Below, one piece after another: positions 4,938 to 59,390 of a DNA stretch of 64,000 nucleotides (position 1 is the stretch's first letter; each line of letters opens with the position of its first letter). Both the position numbers and the translations under genes were made by a program. The DNA comes from a virus, in the IMG/VR virus record IMGVR_UViG_3300050821_024084, positions 1 through 64,000 of that record; one strand, 5' to 3'. The notes under the pieces were generated by a model. It searched no databases and had not been told where the DNA came from. It was given only the letters and a program-made list of their open reading frames with translations.

Positions 4938-4949
4938 CTAACTCATAGT

Positions 4950-4993
4950 GAGCGCTCCGCTTCATTAAGTACGAGAGCAGGAGCGGAGCGCTC
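4950..4993 (+). terminator. hairpin closing the primase operon
   Basis: GAGCGCTCCGC (4950-4960) pairs perfectly with GCGGAGCGCTC (4983-4993). Only gaaaaac follows, so terminator strength is uncertain; the same hairpin separates the operon from the iterons. Confidence 0.6.
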
Positions 4994-5004
4994 GAAAAAC
5001 ATCT

Positions 5005-5425
5005 CTGACCTGCATGTACCCCCTTGTACCCCCTTGTACCCCCGCTGTACCCCCCTAAAAATGTCCCTGACCTGCATGTACCCCCTGTACCCCCTTTTCG
5101 GGGATTTTAAGACGCAGGTACGCAGCCGCGTCTTGTTTGTATTCTGTACCCCCTCGTACCCCCTCGTGTACCCCCTCAGCAGGTCCCTGACCTGCATGTA
5201 CCCCCTGTACCCCCTGTACCCCCTAAAAATATCACCCTCGCGTGTACGCGTGCGTGCGTGCGTGCGTGAGGTTGTTCTACGAACGGGGTACAGGGGGTAC
5301 AGGGGGTACATGCAGGTCAGAGGCTTAAGAAGGGGGTACAGAGAGGGGTACAAGGGGGTACAGACACAGAGAGTAAGTAAGTAAGTAACAGAGAGTATAT
5401 ATATATATATATAAGAAAAAAGAAG
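5005..5425. other. candidate replication origin: GTACCCCC iterons plus AT-rich element
   Basis: Twelve forward GTACCCC(C) units (about 5016-5223) face six inverted GGGGTAC units (5285-5361). Three forward copies of the longer word CTGACCTGCATGTACCCCC (about 5006, 5067, 5188) and one inverted copy (5303-5321) frame the array. Between the halves lies a gtgcgtgcgtgcgtg tract; to the right come gtaagtaagtaagtaa and a run of about nine TA dinucleotides followed by an A-rich stretch, a typical unwinding element. The primase-helicase immediately upstream supports a replication role. No gene is present; open frames through the array only encode repeats. Confidence 0.75.
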
Positions 5426-5490
5426 TACATCCTAAGAACTACCCCCCTTGCAGTAAGCTTGAGGGAGGCGGGAGGGCCAGGAGGGAAACC

Positions 5491-5679
5491 ATGAAGAACG
5501 AGCTGATCACGTGCCGCTGCGACCGGTACGGCGACCCGTGCCGGAACCCGGCGACGCAGGAGGACCTGCTCTGCGATGACTGCCGGGGCCGGAGCTGCTG
5601 GTGGATGGCGATTGAGCGGCAGGAGGCGACCCATTTCCTCCCCGCCTGGAACCTCCTCCCGGTCAGTACGCCCGGCTAG
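5491..5679 (+). CDS. small cysteine-rich protein, putative zinc ribbon
   Basis: 62 residues with a GGAGGG ribosome binding site. Seven cysteines lie in the first 40 residues (CRC, DPC, LLCDDC, SC), arranged CxC...C...CxxC, consistent with zinc binding. It lies between the putative origin and the leaderless zinc-finger gene at 5797. Function unknown. Confidence 0.65.
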   Translation: MKNELITCRCDRYGDPCRNPATQEDLLCDDCRGRSCWWMAIERQEATHFLPAWNLLPVSTPG

Positions 5680-53404: not shown

Positions 53405-53805
53405 TGGTCGTCTGCGCCGGGAATGTCGCTCGCAGTCCTGCGCTGGCCTGCCTGCTCCAGGCGTCCCGGGCGGATCTGCGAGTGGAATCAGCTGGCGTCG
53501 GCCGCAAGGCTGTTGCCGGCCTGCGGATGAAGAAGCCGATGCGCGGGCTGCTCACGCAGGCGGGCTACGCGGAATTCGCGCAGGCGCATCGCAGTCGGCT
53601 GATAGCCGATCTGCCAGAGCGCCCGGATCTGTGTATCGCGGTCGGTGTCCCGCAGATGCGACGCCTGGAAGAGCTGCTGCCGGACGTGCCCCGGCAGGCG
53701 TGCGATCCGCTGATTCCTGACCCGGCCTACGGAGATCAGGTCTCCTACGACCGGGCCTGGACGTGTATCCTGGAGAACGCCGCCCGGCTGGCGGTGGCCC
53801 TGTGA
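53395..53805 (+). CDS. low-molecular-weight protein-tyrosine-phosphatase-like enzyme
   Basis: 136 residues, leaderless start six bases after TAAGCT. Active-site loop VVCAGNVARSPAL (C-x5-R-S) at about 5-17 and the acid loop IPDPAYGDQ at about 106. Usual length of LMW-PTP/arsenate-reductase folds. In this cassette it might hydrolyse a phosphorylated base intermediate; not known. Confidence 0.85.
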   Translation: MYVMVVCAGNVARSPALACLLQASRADLRVESAGVGRKAVAGLRMKKPMRGLLTQAGYAEFAQAHRSRLIADLPERPDLCIAVGVPQMRRLEELLPDVPRQACDPLIPDPAYGDQVSYDRAWTCILENAARLAVAL

Positions 53806-54638
53806 AGCTTATCGTGGTGGGGGCAGGCATCGCCGGGTCGGCCCTGTGCCAGCTCGCTGAAGAGCGCGGGCACGACGTGACGCTGGTGTCGGACGGCGTG
53901 CCGGACAGCCTGGCGGCGACGGCGGTGCTGCGGCGCGGTTACCATGCGGGCAAGCCGGACCAGCTGGCGGCCCTGGACTACGCCCTGGACTGCTACCAGC
54001 GGTGGGGGGTGCCGGTGCGCCGGGGCGGGCTAGGGCAGAGCTACCGGCGGCTCGGGGATGAGCCGGTGGCAGATGAGGACTGGCTCCTGCTGGACCCCGC
54101 CGCTCCGCTGGCGGAACCCGACGTGCGCGCTGAGATCCTGACGGTGAAGAACGGGACGGCGTGGCTCGGGGCGGGCCGGTCGCTGGAAGGCGATGCTGTT
54201 GTTGTCGCAACCGGTGCCCGGGAGGGCAATCTCCAGGCGACAGGGAGCGTCACCTGGGGCGTCACCCTGGTGCACAGCCATCCGGAGGCGCTGCGCGACG
54301 AGCAGATCCGCATCTACCAGTGGGCCCCGTACCGGACGATCGTCGCCGGGGTAGTGAACGGGGAAGCCCGGGTGGGCTCGTCATCGGCCCGGAGCCCGGA
54401 TGCGGCCCGGAACCAGATGACCAAGATGCTGGAGAAAGCCTGGGGTCTGGGCTGGCTGACCACGCGAAAAAGCTGGGGCGAGGTGCTGGGCGCGCGACTG
54501 AAGACCGAGCAGCTGTCCTGGCGGGATCCTGAGGACGGGGCCTGGCGGCTGGCCGGGTTCCACCGGACCGGCTATGCGCTAGCTCCGGCTGCGGCACGTG
54601 ATCTGCTGAGCGAGATCGAGTTGACGGTCAGCGGGTAA
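53802..54638 (+). CDS. FAD-dependent oxidoreductase (DAO-type, DNA-modification associated)
   Basis: 278 residues from GTG 53802 (GTGA overlap). MKLIVVGAGIAGSALCQLAE is the Rossmann dinucleotide fold; DAVVVATGA at about 130; C-terminal RLAGFHRTGYALAPAAA closes the fold. Short members of this family accompany TET/JBP and kinase genes in phages and are thought to oxidise base-attached amino acids. Role here by context. Confidence 0.83.
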   Translation: MKLIVVGAGIAGSALCQLAEERGHDVTLVSDGVPDSLAATAVLRRGYHAGKPDQLAALDYALDCYQRWGVPVRRGGLGQSYRRLGDEPVADEDWLLLDPAAPLAEPDVRAEILTVKNGTAWLGAGRSLEGDAVVVATGAREGNLQATGSVTWGVTLVHSHPEALRDEQIRIYQWAPYRTIVAGVVNGEARVGSSSARSPDAARNQMTKMLEKAWGLGWLTTRKSWGEVLGARLKTEQLSWRDPEDGAWRLAGFHRTGYALAPAAARDLLSEIELTVSG

Positions 54639-54649
54639 TCTGCTAGTCT
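54621..54649 (+). promoter_or_regulatory. promoter with 17-base spacer, leaderless
   Basis: TTGACG (54621-54626) and TAGTCT (54644-54649); GTG 54657 follows seven bases later. The clearest leaderless promoter in the window. Confidence 0.8.
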
Positions 54650-54656
54650 CGGGTAT

Positions 54657-55244
54657 GTGTACCTGGTATACCTGACGGGAGCGCCTGCGACCGGGAAATC
54701 CTCGCTGATGGCCCGGCTGACGAACGGTCTCACGCGCGTGCCGCAGCTGGCAGACGGCGTGGTTCCGTACGAGGAGCTGCTGGCTCCTGACGGGCGGATG
54801 ACCGGTGTGGAGCTCGGCAAGCGCCGGGAGCGATTCTCCGGCACGGACGCGATGGCGTACAGCATCATGCCGAAGGTCTGCGCCTGGGTGGAGCGCTCCA
54901 TGCGCGAGCTGATGCTGGGCGAGGGCGATCGCCTGTCCAGCATGAAGTTCCTGACTGCTGCTGAGAAGGCGGGCTACGAGATACATCTCGTGCATCTGAG
55001 TGCCCGGCAGTCCGTGCTGGACGAGCGCTGCGAGGCACGAGGAAGCCGCCAGTCCCGGCACTGGCGCATCGGGCGCGTCACGATGGCTGTCCGCCTGGCG
55101 GCTCACGCAGAAGCTGCCGGGCACACGGTGCACACGCTGGATGCCGAGCGCCCGCTTGATGAGCTGGTGCGTGAGATGCGGGAGCAGATGCCGTTCCTGC
55201 TGGAACTGGGGAACGCCGATGATCCGGTTGCGACTCGCCACTAG
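54657..55244 (+). CDS. P-loop kinase, hydroxymethyl-pyrimidine DNA kinase type
   Basis: 195 residues from GTG 54657. Walker A YLTGAPATGKSSLMARL at 5-21, DGVVPYEEL, acidic RMTGVELGKRRE and a C-terminal HWRIGRVTMAVRLAAHAEAAG. Matches phage 5-hydroxymethyl-uracil DNA kinases that phosphorylate the oxidised base in DNA to allow substitution. Directly upstream of the TET/JBP gene, overlapping by 26 bases. Confidence 0.8.
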   Translation: MYLVYLTGAPATGKSSLMARLTNGLTRVPQLADGVVPYEELLAPDGRMTGVELGKRRERFSGTDAMAYSIMPKVCAWVERSMRELMLGEGDRLSSMKFLTAAEKAGYEIHLVHLSARQSVLDERCEARGSRQSRHWRIGRVTMAVRLAAHAEAAGHTVHTLDAERPLDELVREMREQMPFLLELGNADDPVATRH

Positions 55245-56529
55245 AGTAGCAGATCGCGTTATCAAGGAAAAGCTCGAAGGCTATACCCTAGGTGAGCAGG
55301 ACTATGACGTCCTGGTGCGCGGGAAGGCGCTCGTGCGGATGCCGGACGGACGTCCGCTGCTGTGCTATCTGCCGGGCGTCCTGAAAGAGACCCAGGAGCG
55401 CGAGGGCGTCTACGATATTCTGCATCCGCTGTACACGCACATGACCAACAACCGGGGCGCGGCCAGCGGGACGCGGAGGATCGTCCGGGGGTCCGGCGAG
55501 AAGACCGGCAAGCGCAGCGATGCGATGTCGGTGGCCTCGCCGTTCATCGGGGCGGCAGATCCCGGCGGGATCTACCGGTACTGCCGTCTGACAGAATGGA
55601 CTGGCAGTCATCTCCCGCAGTGGGAGGCACTGCATCCGTATCTCCGGGAGATCGCGCATCACTTCGAGCAGCAGATCCCGGATCGGCATGCCGTCCAGAT
55701 GGAGTACGTGCAGCGCACCGACCACGCCTGGGTCGTGCCGGGAACGCCGTTCACCACTATCACCGTCAACAACTCGTTCGCGACGGGCGTGCACAAGGAC
55801 GCCGGGGATCTGGAGACGGGGTTCTCCGCGCTGTCCTGCCTGCGTCAGGGCGACTACGAGGGCGGCGTCCTGGTGTTTCCCGCGTATCGCATCGGGGTAG
55901 ACATGCAGGACGGGGATCTGCTGCTGATGGACGCGCATCAGTGGCACGGCAACACCCGCATGATGTGCGGCTGCGGGGAGCCTATCCAGCGGCGGTTCTG
56001 CGAGACGTGCGGGGCTGAGCGGATCAGCGTGGTGTGCTATTACCGGACTAAGATAGCCGACTGCGGCACCCCGGAAGAGGAACTGGAACGCGCCGTGACG
56101 GACACGGAGCGCCGGTCAGGACTAGGAGACGAGCTTGATGAGCGGGACACGAACTCAGACCCTGCAAGTGGACTCCCGGGCGCTCCAGCGGTACGTGCAG
56201 GGGATGACCTACCAGCAGATAGCGGACGCGGAGCAGTGCTCCGAGCAGACAGCTCACATCCGGGTCCGCCGGGCGATCCGGAACCAGTACCGGCTGGAAG
56301 CCGACGAGCTCCGCGTCGTCGCGGACGAGCAGCTCAGCTTCCTGACCCGGCAGCTGACCGCGCTGATCCACAAGAAGTCCTACAAGATAGCGCCCAACGG
56401 GAAGATCGCCGTTCACCCGGAGACCGGGGAGCCGCTGGAGGACTACAGCGAGCAGCGGATGACCGCGCTGGCGCTGCTCAAGGTGGGCGAGTCCCGGCGC
56501 AAGCTGCTCGGACTCGACCAGCCAGTTAA
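55219..56529 (+). CDS. TET/JBP-family 2-oxoglutarate/Fe(II) dioxygenase (base hydroxylase)
   Basis: 436 residues from ATG 55219. TITVNNSFATGVHKDAGDLE carries the H-x-D iron motif; GGVLVFPAYRIGVDMQDGDL and LMDAHQWHGNTRM the distal His and 2-oxoglutarate region; a CGCGEP...CETCG zinc knuckle follows. It should hydroxylate thymine or 5-methylcytosine in DNA. The real end is probably near 56125: beyond that the frame only shadows the terminase gene and looks non-coding, suggesting a one-base shift just before 56130. Confidence 0.88.
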   Translation: MIRLRLATRVADRVIKEKLEGYTLGEQDYDVLVRGKALVRMPDGRPLLCYLPGVLKETQEREGVYDILHPLYTHMTNNRGAASGTRRIVRGSGEKTGKRSDAMSVASPFIGAADPGGIYRYCRLTEWTGSHLPQWEALHPYLREIAHHFEQQIPDRHAVQMEYVQRTDHAWVVPGTPFTTITVNNSFATGVHKDAGDLETGFSALSCLRQGDYEGGVLVFPAYRIGVDMQDGDLLLMDAHQWHGNTRMMCGCGEPIQRRFCETCGAERISVVCYYRTKIADCGTPEEELERAVTDTERRSGLGDELDERDTNSDPASGLPGAPAVRAGDDLPADSGRGAVLRADSSHPGPPGDPEPVPAGSRRAPRRRGRAAQLPDPAADRADPQEVLQDSAQREDRRSPGDRGAAGGLQRAADDRAGAAQGGRVPAQAARTRPAS

Positions 56530-56662
56530 GCACCGGGTGGAGATCACCGACAAGATGGACTCCGAGATCGAGCGCCTGGCGCAGGATCTCGCTGCGAACG
56601 GCGCAGGCGAGCCGGTGCTGCCGGAGCTACCTGCCGGGGTGACGTCCGGTGACGGAGACTGA
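56138..56662 (+). CDS. terminase small subunit
   Basis: 174 residues from ATG 56138. RALQRYVQGMTYQQIADAEQ, CSEQTAHIRVRRAIRN is the DNA-recognising helix-turn-helix; the middle is a helical oligomerisation region (DEQLSFLTRQLTALIHKKS); C-terminus Gly/Pro-rich. Immediately precedes and overlaps the large subunit. Confidence 0.83.
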   Translation: MSGTRTQTLQVDSRALQRYVQGMTYQQIADAEQCSEQTAHIRVRRAIRNQYRLEADELRVVADEQLSFLTRQLTALIHKKSYKIAPNGKIAVHPETGEPLEDYSEQRMTALALLKVGESRRKLLGLDQPVKHRVEITDKMDSEIERLAQDLAANGAGEPVLPELPAGVTSGDGD

Positions 56663-59390
56663 CGAGCCTCCGGAGCTCCCCCCTAACTGGCGGGATCTCG
56701 GTCCTGATGCCAAGCGCGTGCTGCTGCACAAGCTGCGCGGCATGGCGGTCAGCAAAGGACTGGGCGGACCTCGTGAGTGGCGGTCGAAAGCGCGGCCCAA
56801 GCAGCTGCCCCCGAGTGACCCAGCACATCATCTGCCGGACGGTAACGGGTTCAGATGCGGATGTTCCGGTCCTGATGAGAACTGGAATATCTGGATGTTC
56901 ATGGCCGGCCGGGGGTGTGTTGCCGGGCATACGCGCATCTGGCTACCGCTGGAGAACCGGTTCGAGCGGATCGATACGCTAGTCCGTCAGGGAGAGGCCG
57001 TCATTGTCCTCTCCCTGACGGAGAATGGCGCAGAACCACGTCAGACTGACGGGGCTCCTTTCATCGGGGGCGTGGCAGAGCTGTATGATGTGCTGACTTC
57101 GGACGGCAACCGCATCACGGTGACTGACCGGCATCGTTTCCTGACTCCGCAAGGATGGCTGCCACTCGCTCGCGTGCACGTCGGACAGCTTCTTGCCGGA
57201 GGCGCTCCCGCTCCTCCGCAGGAAGCTTCTTCACACCGGTCAGGGTGGCGTGAAGATGCTCGGAATTGGCGGGGAACACGCGAAGATTCTCCGGACGATT
57301 ATCCGAGGTATCCCCGTTCACATGATCAACTACCTCGTCAGGGGACAGGCAGCGTCCTAGCACCTGCTCCATCACGAGTCGATGCTGCCGGACATACCCG
57401 AGATTATTCATGTGAGGATGATTTCTCATCTTCACGAGAATGTAACCGTCCTCGTCGACTGCATAGCCTCCCTTCCAGAAGTAGTTATGCTCGGGACGCG
57501 CTTTCGCCTCTAGACACGGAAGTCCGAGTTCTATCAGGCGTGAGCGAACTGTCTCTGCGTTACAGCCGAGGATGGCTGCCATTTCCGTGCATGTCATCTG
57601 CTGGGCATGCAAGTCGCGGAGCTTATCAGTGTCTACAGGCATGCGACTGCCCTGAGACATGCGCTTGCGCGACAGGTCAGAAGCCCTATGCCCTCGCAGC
57701 TGCACCCCGGCACGTTGCAGAGCGCGTCCTACGGTCTGATAACTTGTTCCGGTTGTCTGAGCAAGGTCTTTCAGCGGCTCTCCTTCCTGATAGCGCCGGA
57801 TCAGGTCCGGAAGAAGATCTGACGGTATCTTGGAGTACTCTCGGCTCGGCATGTGAGCATGGTATCACGTGGACGAGAGTACGGTCGGTCCGGTCTGCGG
57901 GAACAGGATGGTTTTATGACCTGACTGTCCCTGGTGCAGAGAATTATGCGGCGGAAGGTCTCTGGCATCACAATTGCGGAAAAACCTGGTCGGGCGCTAA
58001 CTGGATAATTGAACAGGCGCTCCGGAACCCGGGAACGATGTGGGCGGTCGTTGCCCCGACATTCCGGGATGTCCGGGTCACGTGCTTCGAAGGCCCCTCC
58101 GGGATTCGACGTCTTCTTCAGCCTGGTGAGGAAGATCAATGGCGCAGGAATGAGCTGCGCCTGGATCTGGTGAATGGCTCCGTTATTTACGGGTATTCGG
58201 CTGACCAGCCGGAACGATTGCGCGGATCTAACCTTTCCGGGGCGTGGGTAGATGAAATGGGGAGTTTTGCGTATGAGGAAACCTGGTATGAGGGACTAGT
58301 CCCTGCGCTACGTATCGGGGAACATCCCCGTGTCATGGTCACCACGACTCCGCGCCCGACGAAGCTCATCCGGGATCTGTACTCGCGTCGCGACGGCACC
58401 GTTCACACCACCACGGCCTCCACCTGGGAGAATGCGGCCAACCTGTCGGCTGCCGCCCTCGATGAGCTCAAGCGCCGGTACGAAGGCACCCGGCTGGGCC
58501 GTCAGGAGCTTGAAGGCGTCCTCCTGGAGGATCTGGAAGGCGCGCTGTGGCGGCGCAGCGATATCGACGCTGCGCGAGTCAGGCCGGAGGACGTGCCAGA
58601 TCTGGCCCGCGTGGTGGTGGCGATCGACCCGGCGATGAGCGCCGACGAGGATGCTGACGAGACGGGCATCATCGTGTCCGGGGAAGACGGGCGCGGCCAC
58701 GGGTACGTCCTGGCGGACTGGTCGATGCAGGGCACGCCCGAGGCATGCATGCGGCGGGCTGTCCAGGCGTACAAGCACTACAACGCGGACTGCGTCGTGG
58801 CTGAGGTCAACAACGGCGGTGACTTTATCGGCACGGTGCTGCGCACCGTCGATCCGAATCTGCCCTACCATCAGGTGCGGGCCTCGCGCGGGAAGGCGAT
58901 CCGGGCAGAGCCTGTGTCGTCACTGGCGGAGCAGCACCGGCTGCATCACGTGGGGAACTTCCCGGAGCTGGAAGATCAGCTCTGCTCATTCGTCCCGGGA
59001 ATCGCCGGGCCGTCCCCGGACCGGCTTGACGCGCTGGTCTGGTCAGTATTCGAGCTGAAGAGCTTGTCGCAGTCCAGCTGGCTCTCCGCGTACGGAGCCA
59101 TCCGCTGCACGCAATGCGAGATGGCGTTCCGGGGCTCGGCGACGTGCCCGCGCTGCGGAGCAGATGCACCTGCATCGCCTGACGGGGGAAGCTTCTCCCC
59201 GGAGGGGGCGGGGGAGGATCGCAGCATGGGCGGCTGGGCCTCGGTGTACCGGCTGGCCAGGTGCAGCAAGGGACACGTGTACTCTGAGCGGTCCGGTGGC
59301 TGCCCGCAGTGCCGGTCCGGCGGCCTGGACTGGCTGCGCGCGCACGGCAAGCCCGGTGGACAGGCAGGTTCCGGGGCGGTAAGCTCGTAG
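56649..59390 (+). CDS. terminase large subunit interrupted by an intein
   Basis: 913 residues as encoded from GTG 56649; 560 after removal of the 353-residue intein. Exteins join as MFMAGRG + CGKTWSGAN, i.e. exactly inside Walker A. Walker B SNLSGAWVDEMGS and motif III VMVTTTPRPTK follow; nuclease acids appear in VVVAIDPAMSADEDADETGI, DCVVAEVNNGGDF and PDRLDALVWSVF. The C-terminus has two zinc ribbons (CTQCEMAF...CPRCGAD; CSKGH...CPQCRSG). It cuts and pumps DNA into the capsid. Confidence 0.95.
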   Translation: MTETDEPPELPPNWRDLGPDAKRVLLHKLRGMAVSKGLGGPREWRSKARPKQLPPSDPAHHLPDGNGFRCGCSGPDENWNIWMFMAGRGCVAGHTRIWLPLENRFERIDTLVRQGEAVIVLSLTENGAEPRQTDGAPFIGGVAELYDVLTSDGNRITVTDRHRFLTPQGWLPLARVHVGQLLAGGAPAPPQEASSHRSGWREDARNWRGTREDSPDDYPRYPRSHDQLPRQGTGSVLAPAPSRVDAAGHTRDYSCEDDFSSSRECNRPRRLHSLPSRSSYARDALSPLDTEVRVLSGVSELSLRYSRGWLPFPCMSSAGHASRGAYQCLQACDCPETCACATGQKPYALAAAPRHVAERVLRSDNLFRLSEQGLSAALLPDSAGSGPEEDLTVSWSTLGSACEHGITWTRVRSVRSAGTGWFYDLTVPGAENYAAEGLWHHNCGKTWSGANWIIEQALRNPGTMWAVVAPTFRDVRVTCFEGPSGIRRLLQPGEEDQWRRNELRLDLVNGSVIYGYSADQPERLRGSNLSGAWVDEMGSFAYEETWYEGLVPALRIGEHPRVMVTTTPRPTKLIRDLYSRRDGTVHTTTASTWENAANLSAAALDELKRRYEGTRLGRQELEGVLLEDLEGALWRRSDIDAARVRPEDVPDLARVVVAIDPAMSADEDADETGIIVSGEDGRGHGYVLADWSMQGTPEACMRRAVQAYKHYNADCVVAEVNNGGDFIGTVLRTVDPNLPYHQVRASRGKAIRAEPVSSLAEQHRLHHVGNFPELEDQLCSFVPGIAGPSPDRLDALVWSVFELKSLSQSSWLSAYGAIRCTQCEMAFRGSATCPRCGADAPASPDGGSFSPEGAGEDRSMGGWASVYRLARCSKGHVYSERSGGCPQCRSGGLDWLRAHGKPGGQAGSGAVSS
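56916..57974 (+). mobile_element. TerL intein with antisense endonuclease gene
   Basis: 353 codons. Block A begins with Cys1 (CVAGHTRIWLPLENRF); block B is GNRITVTDRHRFLTPQGW; block F is TGWFYDLTVPGAENYAAEG; block G ends WHHN followed by Cys+1. Between roughly codons 105 and 300 the sense frame has no known motif and low-complexity composition; on the other strand the same bases encode an HNH endonuclease (57115..57852). Confidence 0.92.
57115..57852 (-). CDS. HNH homing endonuclease encoded antisense within the intein
   Basis: 245 residues from ATG 57852, six bases after the leftward -10-like TACCAT. Two DNA-binding helix-turn-helix units (EGEPLKDLAQTTGTSYQTVG and CTEMAAILGCNAETVRSRL) precede a classic HNH_3 nuclease: HRLVMEQVLGRCLSPDEVVD, HVNGDTSDNRPENLRVF, NSEHLHATL. 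Complete and apparently intact. It would cut intein-less terminase genes. Encoding on the strand opposite to the host intein is highly unusual. Confidence 0.92.
   Translation of the reverse strand: MPSREYSKIPSDLLPDLIRRYQEGEPLKDLAQTTGTSYQTVGRALQRAGVQLRGHRASDLSRKRMSQGSRMPVDTDKLRDLHAQQMTCTEMAAILGCNAETVRSRLIELGLPCLEAKARPEHNYFWKGGYAVDEDGYILVKMRNHPHMNNLGYVRQHRLVMEQVLGRCLSPDEVVDHVNGDTSDNRPENLRVFPANSEHLHATLTGVKKLPAEERERLRQEAVRRARERVAAILAESGNDAGQSP

Follow-up and report, generated by a model that had tools for sequence, protein, structure and literature searches.

Positions 1 to 64,000 of the IMG/VR virus record IMGVR_UViG_3300050821_024084 (hereafter the window, comprising the first 64 kb of a 101-kb record) carry a large terminase gene (terL) that is interrupted by an intein, and the DNA of this intein also encodes, on the opposite strand, a protein with helix-turn-helix (HTH) regions and an HNH endonuclease domain (Table 1). 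Pfam searches with the TerL open reading frame (ORF) identified Terminase_6N (amino acids 443-639), Terminase_6C (658-801) and Intein_splicing (102-442; 6e-11), and the insertion point of the intein was found to be the Walker A motif (MAGRG/CGKT, with junctions GRG/C...HN/CGKT). The intein aligned with homologous inteins over all blocks and displayed the features of class 1, namely Cys1, a terminal Asn, a +1 Cys, blocks A, B, F and G, a predicted HINT fold and a continuous frame; it is thus an unsplit intein, rather than two halves on separate polypeptides. Given that the insert appears as an open frame with intein blocks, a group I intron is not expected here.

The sense middle of the intein had no matches in Pfam or PHROGs, and the window intein therefore has no in-frame endonuclease. 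An AlphaFold model of the sense intein contained two confident HINT halves around an unstructured region (amino acids 113-321; predicted local distance difference test score (pLDDT) of ~29), and DnaB and RecA mini-inteins were among its Foldseek matches in the PDB. The blank Pfam and PHROG searches and the disordered model together ruled out a hidden in-frame endonuclease in this region. The antisense ORF matched Pfam HNH_3 (E = 3.5e-12, above the gathering score) and HTH families, as well as PHROG HNH families down to 5e-24, and was modelled by AlphaFold fairly confidently (mean pLDDT 79). It combines a catalytic motif with an HTH DNA-binding module, as homing endonucleases do, and its HNH residues H157, H177, N185, N189 and H199 were invariant or nearly so across 70 loci. 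No second HNH of the window type was found in the 101-kb record. The original prediction for this DNA had described an intein with splicing blocks at both ends, lacking the usual in-frame endonuclease and carrying a complete HTH and HNH endonuclease read leftward; each of these claims agreed with the searches (Intein_splicing, C1...HN and the +1 Cys; the unmatched sense middle; HNH_3 and the HTH families), and all of its coordinates for the intein and the endonuclease were correct.

Table 1. Features of the intein-interrupted terL locus in the window (positions are those of the window).
Feature	Position	Strand	Details
Probable small terminase gene, 175-amino-acid HTH protein	56135-56662	+	HTH matches and position just upstream of terL; assignment inferred
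terL (large terminase), intein-interrupted	56649-59390	+	N-extein 56649-56915, C-extein 57975-59390; 913 amino acids, open; PHROG terminase large subunit
Intein, class-1-type, 353 amino acids	56916-57974	+	Cys1, block B TDRH, C-terminal HHN, +1 Cys
Hairpin with 15-bp stem	56983-57022	-	Inside intein, 95 nt past HNH stop; z = -4.7 vs shuffles
Splicing block B, GNRITVTDRHRFLTPQGW	57105-57158	+	From alignment; 57115-57158 dual-coded with the antisense end of the HNH gene
Antisense endonuclease gene, 245 amino acids	57115-57852	-	Two HTH regions, HNH_3 domain, helical tail
Sense middle of intein	57162-57863	+	Open, domain-free, predicted disordered
HNH_3 domain of antisense gene, amino acids 156-196	57265-57387	-	Coordinates by arithmetic from ORF start
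-10-like hexamer TACCAT	57859-57864	-	6 nt before HNH ATG (TACCAT-GCTCAC-ATG)
Splicing blocks F and G, FYDLTVPGAENYAAEGLWHHN	57912-57974	+	From alignment

Sequence collections were scanned with patterns of the window's HNH lineage, such that the scans are silent on other endonuclease families, and every locus was classified with hidden Markov models (HMMs) of the splicing blocks and of the HNH. The first scan retrieved one further TerL intein with a reverse endonuclease (L003, 50% HNH identity), and profile searches then yielded many. Among the 80 best viral relatives of the HNH, at least 71 were antisense inside inteins, with L040 being a 72nd by inspection, albeit that the nine loci without an HMM-detected intein were inspected briefly. 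The relative reading phase, for which there are three possibilities, was identical in all 86 intein-associated loci. Cys1 was present in 59 of 59 analysed family inteins, and an HN end followed by Ser, Thr or Cys in 58; a conserved domain in the sense middle was looked for in the homologues and not found. Host genes included those of Terminase_6- and Terminase_3-type TerL proteins, with more than one position of Walker A used, along with SNF2- and DEAD-type helicases, an AAA_24 ATPase, an AAA ATPase and a giant DarB-like methylase/helicase (assigned by eye). The DarB-like form is present in the chromosome of Polaromonas sp. CG9_12 (L105), which was additionally seen to carry a degraded remnant (L106) at the contig end opposite this full antisense-HNH intein.

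Nine sequenced phages were also identified as carriers, these being Pseudoalteromonas phage PHS3, Pectobacterium phages Ymer, Abuela, Sabo, Taid, Pappous, Koroua and Amona, and Dickeya phage Setonix; the DNA was read for PHS3 and Ymer, with the other seven assigned by their HNH match to PHS3. Ymer and these seven had 48-49% identity to the PHS3 HNH over its length. In PHS3 (L148 1655-3778, minus strand) the true frame of terL plus intein is open over 708 amino acids, yet the annotation gives terL in truncated form, because the antisense HNH was called in its place. The annotation of Ymer has the whole of terL plus intein as a ‘hypothetical protein’. Recurrence in independent contigs and cultured phages excluded an assembly artefact. 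Other HNH relatives that were opened, from phages of Streptomyces, Mycobacterium, Stenotrophomonas, Vibrio and others, were ordinary same-strand genes. A search for homologous TerL inteins carrying or lacking the insert, as had been proposed in the original prediction, returned many carriers, in addition to intein-less relatives (L016, L017 and L019) and ordinary in-frame endonuclease inteins with related splicing blocks (L020, L022 and L023).

Constraint on the two frames was assessed in 70 distinct HNH loci, from which L057 and L075 had been set aside beforehand and redundancy removed by exact protein identity only, so that some close relatives remain. No stop codons were present in the sense frame, as compared with 437.7 predicted by synonymous codon permutation (2.6-11.7 per locus), and the other two antisense frames held 545 and 792. 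For the 13 loci of less than 45% GC, the three frames contained 165, 172 and 0 (sense) stops. The window alone had no sense stops against a mean of 5.6-6.1 under synonymous reshuffling of the HNH (P(0) <= 0.0005), with 6 and 14 stops in its other antisense frames. The same frame in 26 relatives without an HMM-found intein (though L040, among them, has one) contained 73 stops in 2,729 codons. Openness of this frame by chance was rejected on the basis of the reshuffling, the other two frames, the GC classes and the intein-less relatives.

In the shared phase, position 3 of each HNH codon faces position 2 of a sense codon. Substitutions at HNH positions 1, 2 and 3 numbered 3975, 3328 and 7599 (73 pairs of more than 55% identity, which are not independent), and this excess at position 3 indicates that the HNH is the conserved protein in the overlap, whilst the sense frame mainly avoids stops. 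The position-3 bias was gone from the last 25 HNH residues, which face block B (0.048, 0.228 and 0.220 per site), the DNA there being constrained by the splicing block. The original prediction had two proteins constraining the same DNA; judging from the substitution pattern, dual amino-acid constraint is limited to the HNH tail facing block B, and elsewhere the HNH is conserved and the sense frame just stop-free. In L057 the sense frame is broken by 6 TGA stops, and the HNH lies antisense between the intein halves (L057 4108-6114, minus strand, and 4938-5645, plus strand). Its C-terminal intein half, which adjoins an AAA ATPase extein, has its own ATG with GAGGT 7 nt upstream; with a start of its own and a broken sense frame, L057 looks to be a naturally split intein that has been released from the sense constraint.

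Start signals belonging to the antisense genes were also found. Shine-Dalgarno matches of 5 nt or more preceded 27 of 63 HNH first ATGs, as opposed to 8 of 314 control ATGs drawn from these ORFs in matching strand and phase (Fisher p = 4e-17); for this comparison the HNH was assumed to start at its first ATG, which may be wrong for some loci. The clade of the window, including the window copy, is without such a site. In 8 of 8 window-clade loci examined, TANNNT was positioned exactly 6 nt before the start with the facing sense residues varying, a pattern that was noted post hoc; TANNNT-N6-start has a background of ~0.3-0.7 per kb in these ORFs. This is the pattern that a leaderless transcript would give if the host were actinobacterial, and the TACCAT of the window is a probable leaderless promoter of the HNH gene. 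A generic sigma-70 promoter scan found nothing. The -10-like element of the original prediction exists. The placement of the endonuclease in that prediction, on the strand opposite the intein, gains support from ~70 homologous loci, from constraint at the codon level and from the conservation of start signals on the antisense strand. The hairpin past the HNH stop is a possible terminator of the leftward transcript; comparable stems were present in 8 of 65 relatives, and a conserved terminator was dropped since the stem is strong in the window and not family-wide.

The intein-less terL alleles of L016 and L017 have the insertion site intact with the +1 Cys already there, and C-exteins 83-84% identical to that of the window. 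Between L005 and L007 the HNH was 84% and the splicing blocks 78% identical, as compared to only 51% for the C-extein, and the L005 C-extein was 89% identical to that of the intein-less L016. These identities indicate that the intein moves between divergent exteins, and the sporadic distribution and empty alleles are those by which a homing endonuclease is recognised. Across the family, HNH distances correlated with splicing-domain distances (r = 0.73; permutation maximum 0.13), and insertion sites were clustered on the HNH tree (8 changes vs 14.7 in shuffles). The one shared phase and the correlation between HNH and splicing domain imply that the reverse insertion is old and has been inherited with the intein. 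The original prediction had suggested that a free-standing HNH gene invaded a mini-intein in reverse; this was not a recent invasion in the window phage.

Several other features of these loci were observed. The HNH of L012 (4230-5096, minus strand) has an extra N-terminal stretch resembling a repeat of its own HTH region. L010 (3722-7315, plus strand) has a second intein-like insert near the TerL C-terminus (CLAAGTLITVP...VLVHN/CMMTP), so that this gene would hold two inteins. In the window, an FAD-oxidoreductase-like ORF and a kinase-like ORF, both recognised by eye only, lie at 53763-56529 ahead of the probable small terminase gene, and are odd neighbours for packaging genes.

We consider it very probable that the element is a mobile class-1-type intein in the TerL gene, with its homing endonuclease encoded by an independent gene on the antisense strand and not by an in-frame domain. 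The sense strand would encode TerL interrupted by a HINT splicing domain in which some 200 residues between blocks B and F, predicted to be disordered, need only remain stop-free. By analogy with established intein biology, the TerL precursor would self-splice and so restore Walker A. The antisense HTH-HNH protein would be made from its own leftward transcript via its own start signals, proposed to be a leaderless TANNNT promoter in the window clade and Shine-Dalgarno sites in many others. Its expected target is terL without an intein, which it would cleave at or near the Walker A codons, with repair copying the whole element, and its expression would be uncoupled from terL expression and splicing, unlike that of an in-frame endonuclease. 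This layout probably goes back to a single, old event, after which the intein carried it into several ATPase genes.

In this reading, precursor splicing, expression of the HNH gene, DNA cutting and homing are all inferred events, and some observations weigh against it. Foldseek matches of the HNH model were weak (best 1.3e-3; I-HmuI at E = 0.33), so its fold adds little. HNH distances also correlated with C-extein distances (r = 0.79), which implies much vertical descent in the family. Finally, the TerL-intein frame of L075 (3661-5832, minus strand), intact in all other respects, is interrupted by one TAA where it crosses the HNH, which may be a sequencing error or mark a dying copy.

Among other explanations, that of convergence would involve several reverse entries of HNH genes into inteins, with the shared phase being merely the easiest to keep open. 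With HNH third positions facing sense second positions, few codon pairs do give a stop in the sense frame; in addition, the inteins are spread over several host genes and sites, and some HNH relatives are free-standing. Yet all 86 intein-associated loci occupy one of three phases, and the correlation of HNH with splicing-domain distances far exceeds its permutation maximum, making convergence unlikely. Alternatively, the antisense HNH could be a real gene whose product assists the terminase as an accessory nuclease, or whose transcript regulates terL, in place of any homing function. Most family hosts are TerL genes, and HNH proteins that assist terminase in packaging are known (PMC11855218). 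This we regard as improbable, and more so than convergence, as the antisense HNH also occurs in inteins of helicases, the DarB-like protein and AAA ATPases, is absent from the close TerLs L016 and L017, and travels with the intein between divergent exteins.

There is only a slight chance that the element is dead, that is, that the intein still splices around an HNH relic left open by chance. The window copy has no Shine-Dalgarno site, but such decay is at odds with catalytic positions that are invariant or nearly so in 70 loci, with the purifying selection on the HNH evident from its substitutions, and with conserved start signals. As for a sense frame held open fortuitously by GC-rich antisense codons, with TerL unspliced, long spurious antisense ORFs are indeed common in GC-rich DNA. 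Nonetheless, the frame has no stops in the 70 loci at any GC level, the 13 below 45% GC included, where 438 were expected, and the splicing residues are intact; these two results already refute this explanation, to which we assign a negligible probability.

Class 1 inteins with an in-frame endonuclease resemble the window intein in their HINT domain, Cys1, block B TxxH and HN+C/S/T end, in their insertion at conserved ATPase motifs and in having the endonuclease located between blocks B and F. Their endonuclease (usually LAGLIDADG, in some cases HNH) is however part of the polypeptide, whereas that of the window is a separate opposite-strand gene facing a domain-free sense middle. In fractured genes, and in split inteins that have a separate endonuclease gene between the halves, the endonuclease gene likewise lies apart from the intein polypeptide. 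L057 resembles such a state, whilst the window and nearly all its relatives are unsplit with one continuous frame. The ‘hidden HNH’ insertions in phage methylases of ShiLan and Pacc40 are same-strand, out-of-frame HNH genes for which leaderless expression was proposed (PMC11855218). They are comparable in that the HNH is out of frame in a host gene that stays open and is a probable mobile element, but they lie on the same strand and have no intein splicing domain, whereas the window family is antisense in an intein and extends to ~70 loci in several hosts. The Didymium S956-2 group I intron carries a homing endonuclease gene antisense to the host gene (PMC13182076, citing Johansen 2006), and so similarly unites a splicing element with an antisense endonuclease. 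Group I introns, however, splice as RNA and the host frame need not stay open, whilst an antisense gene in an intein must leave the protein frame continuous. Among bacteria, pop is a long overlapping gene antisense to ompA (PMC7103648) and is alike in that a protein-coding gene several hundred bases long lies wholly within another on the antisense strand; cases of this type are single reports, in contrast to a recognisable enzyme conserved over ~70 loci. Our literature searches, which covered open-licence papers, found no antisense endonuclease in an intein, and an earlier description elsewhere is possible. The novelty is in the arrangement, since its parts are known and their combination is new, and it looks like a widespread means, apparently not described before, of housing a mobile element within a gene.

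These loci supply ~70 long antisense overlapping gene pairs for measuring selection, in a field in which the number of fully established long overlapping genes is small (PMC9927249). In the cultured phages PHS3 and Ymer, splicing, expression of the antisense gene and homing can be tested directly, and gene callers mis-annotate such loci, as exemplified by the truncated terL of PHS3. In the usual view, the endonuclease belongs to the intein protein as one of its domains; throughout this family the two lie on opposite strands with both readable, which alters the ways in which such inteins can come under regulation, be lost or become split. It seems to us somewhat more plausible than its converse that antisense-endonuclease inteins are an ancient and widespread phage lineage in TerL and other P-loop ATPases, in which reverse coding would be a standing state that makes expression of the endonuclease independent of that of the host gene and of splicing, and may provide a natural route to split inteins once the sense frame no longer has to stay open, as in L057.
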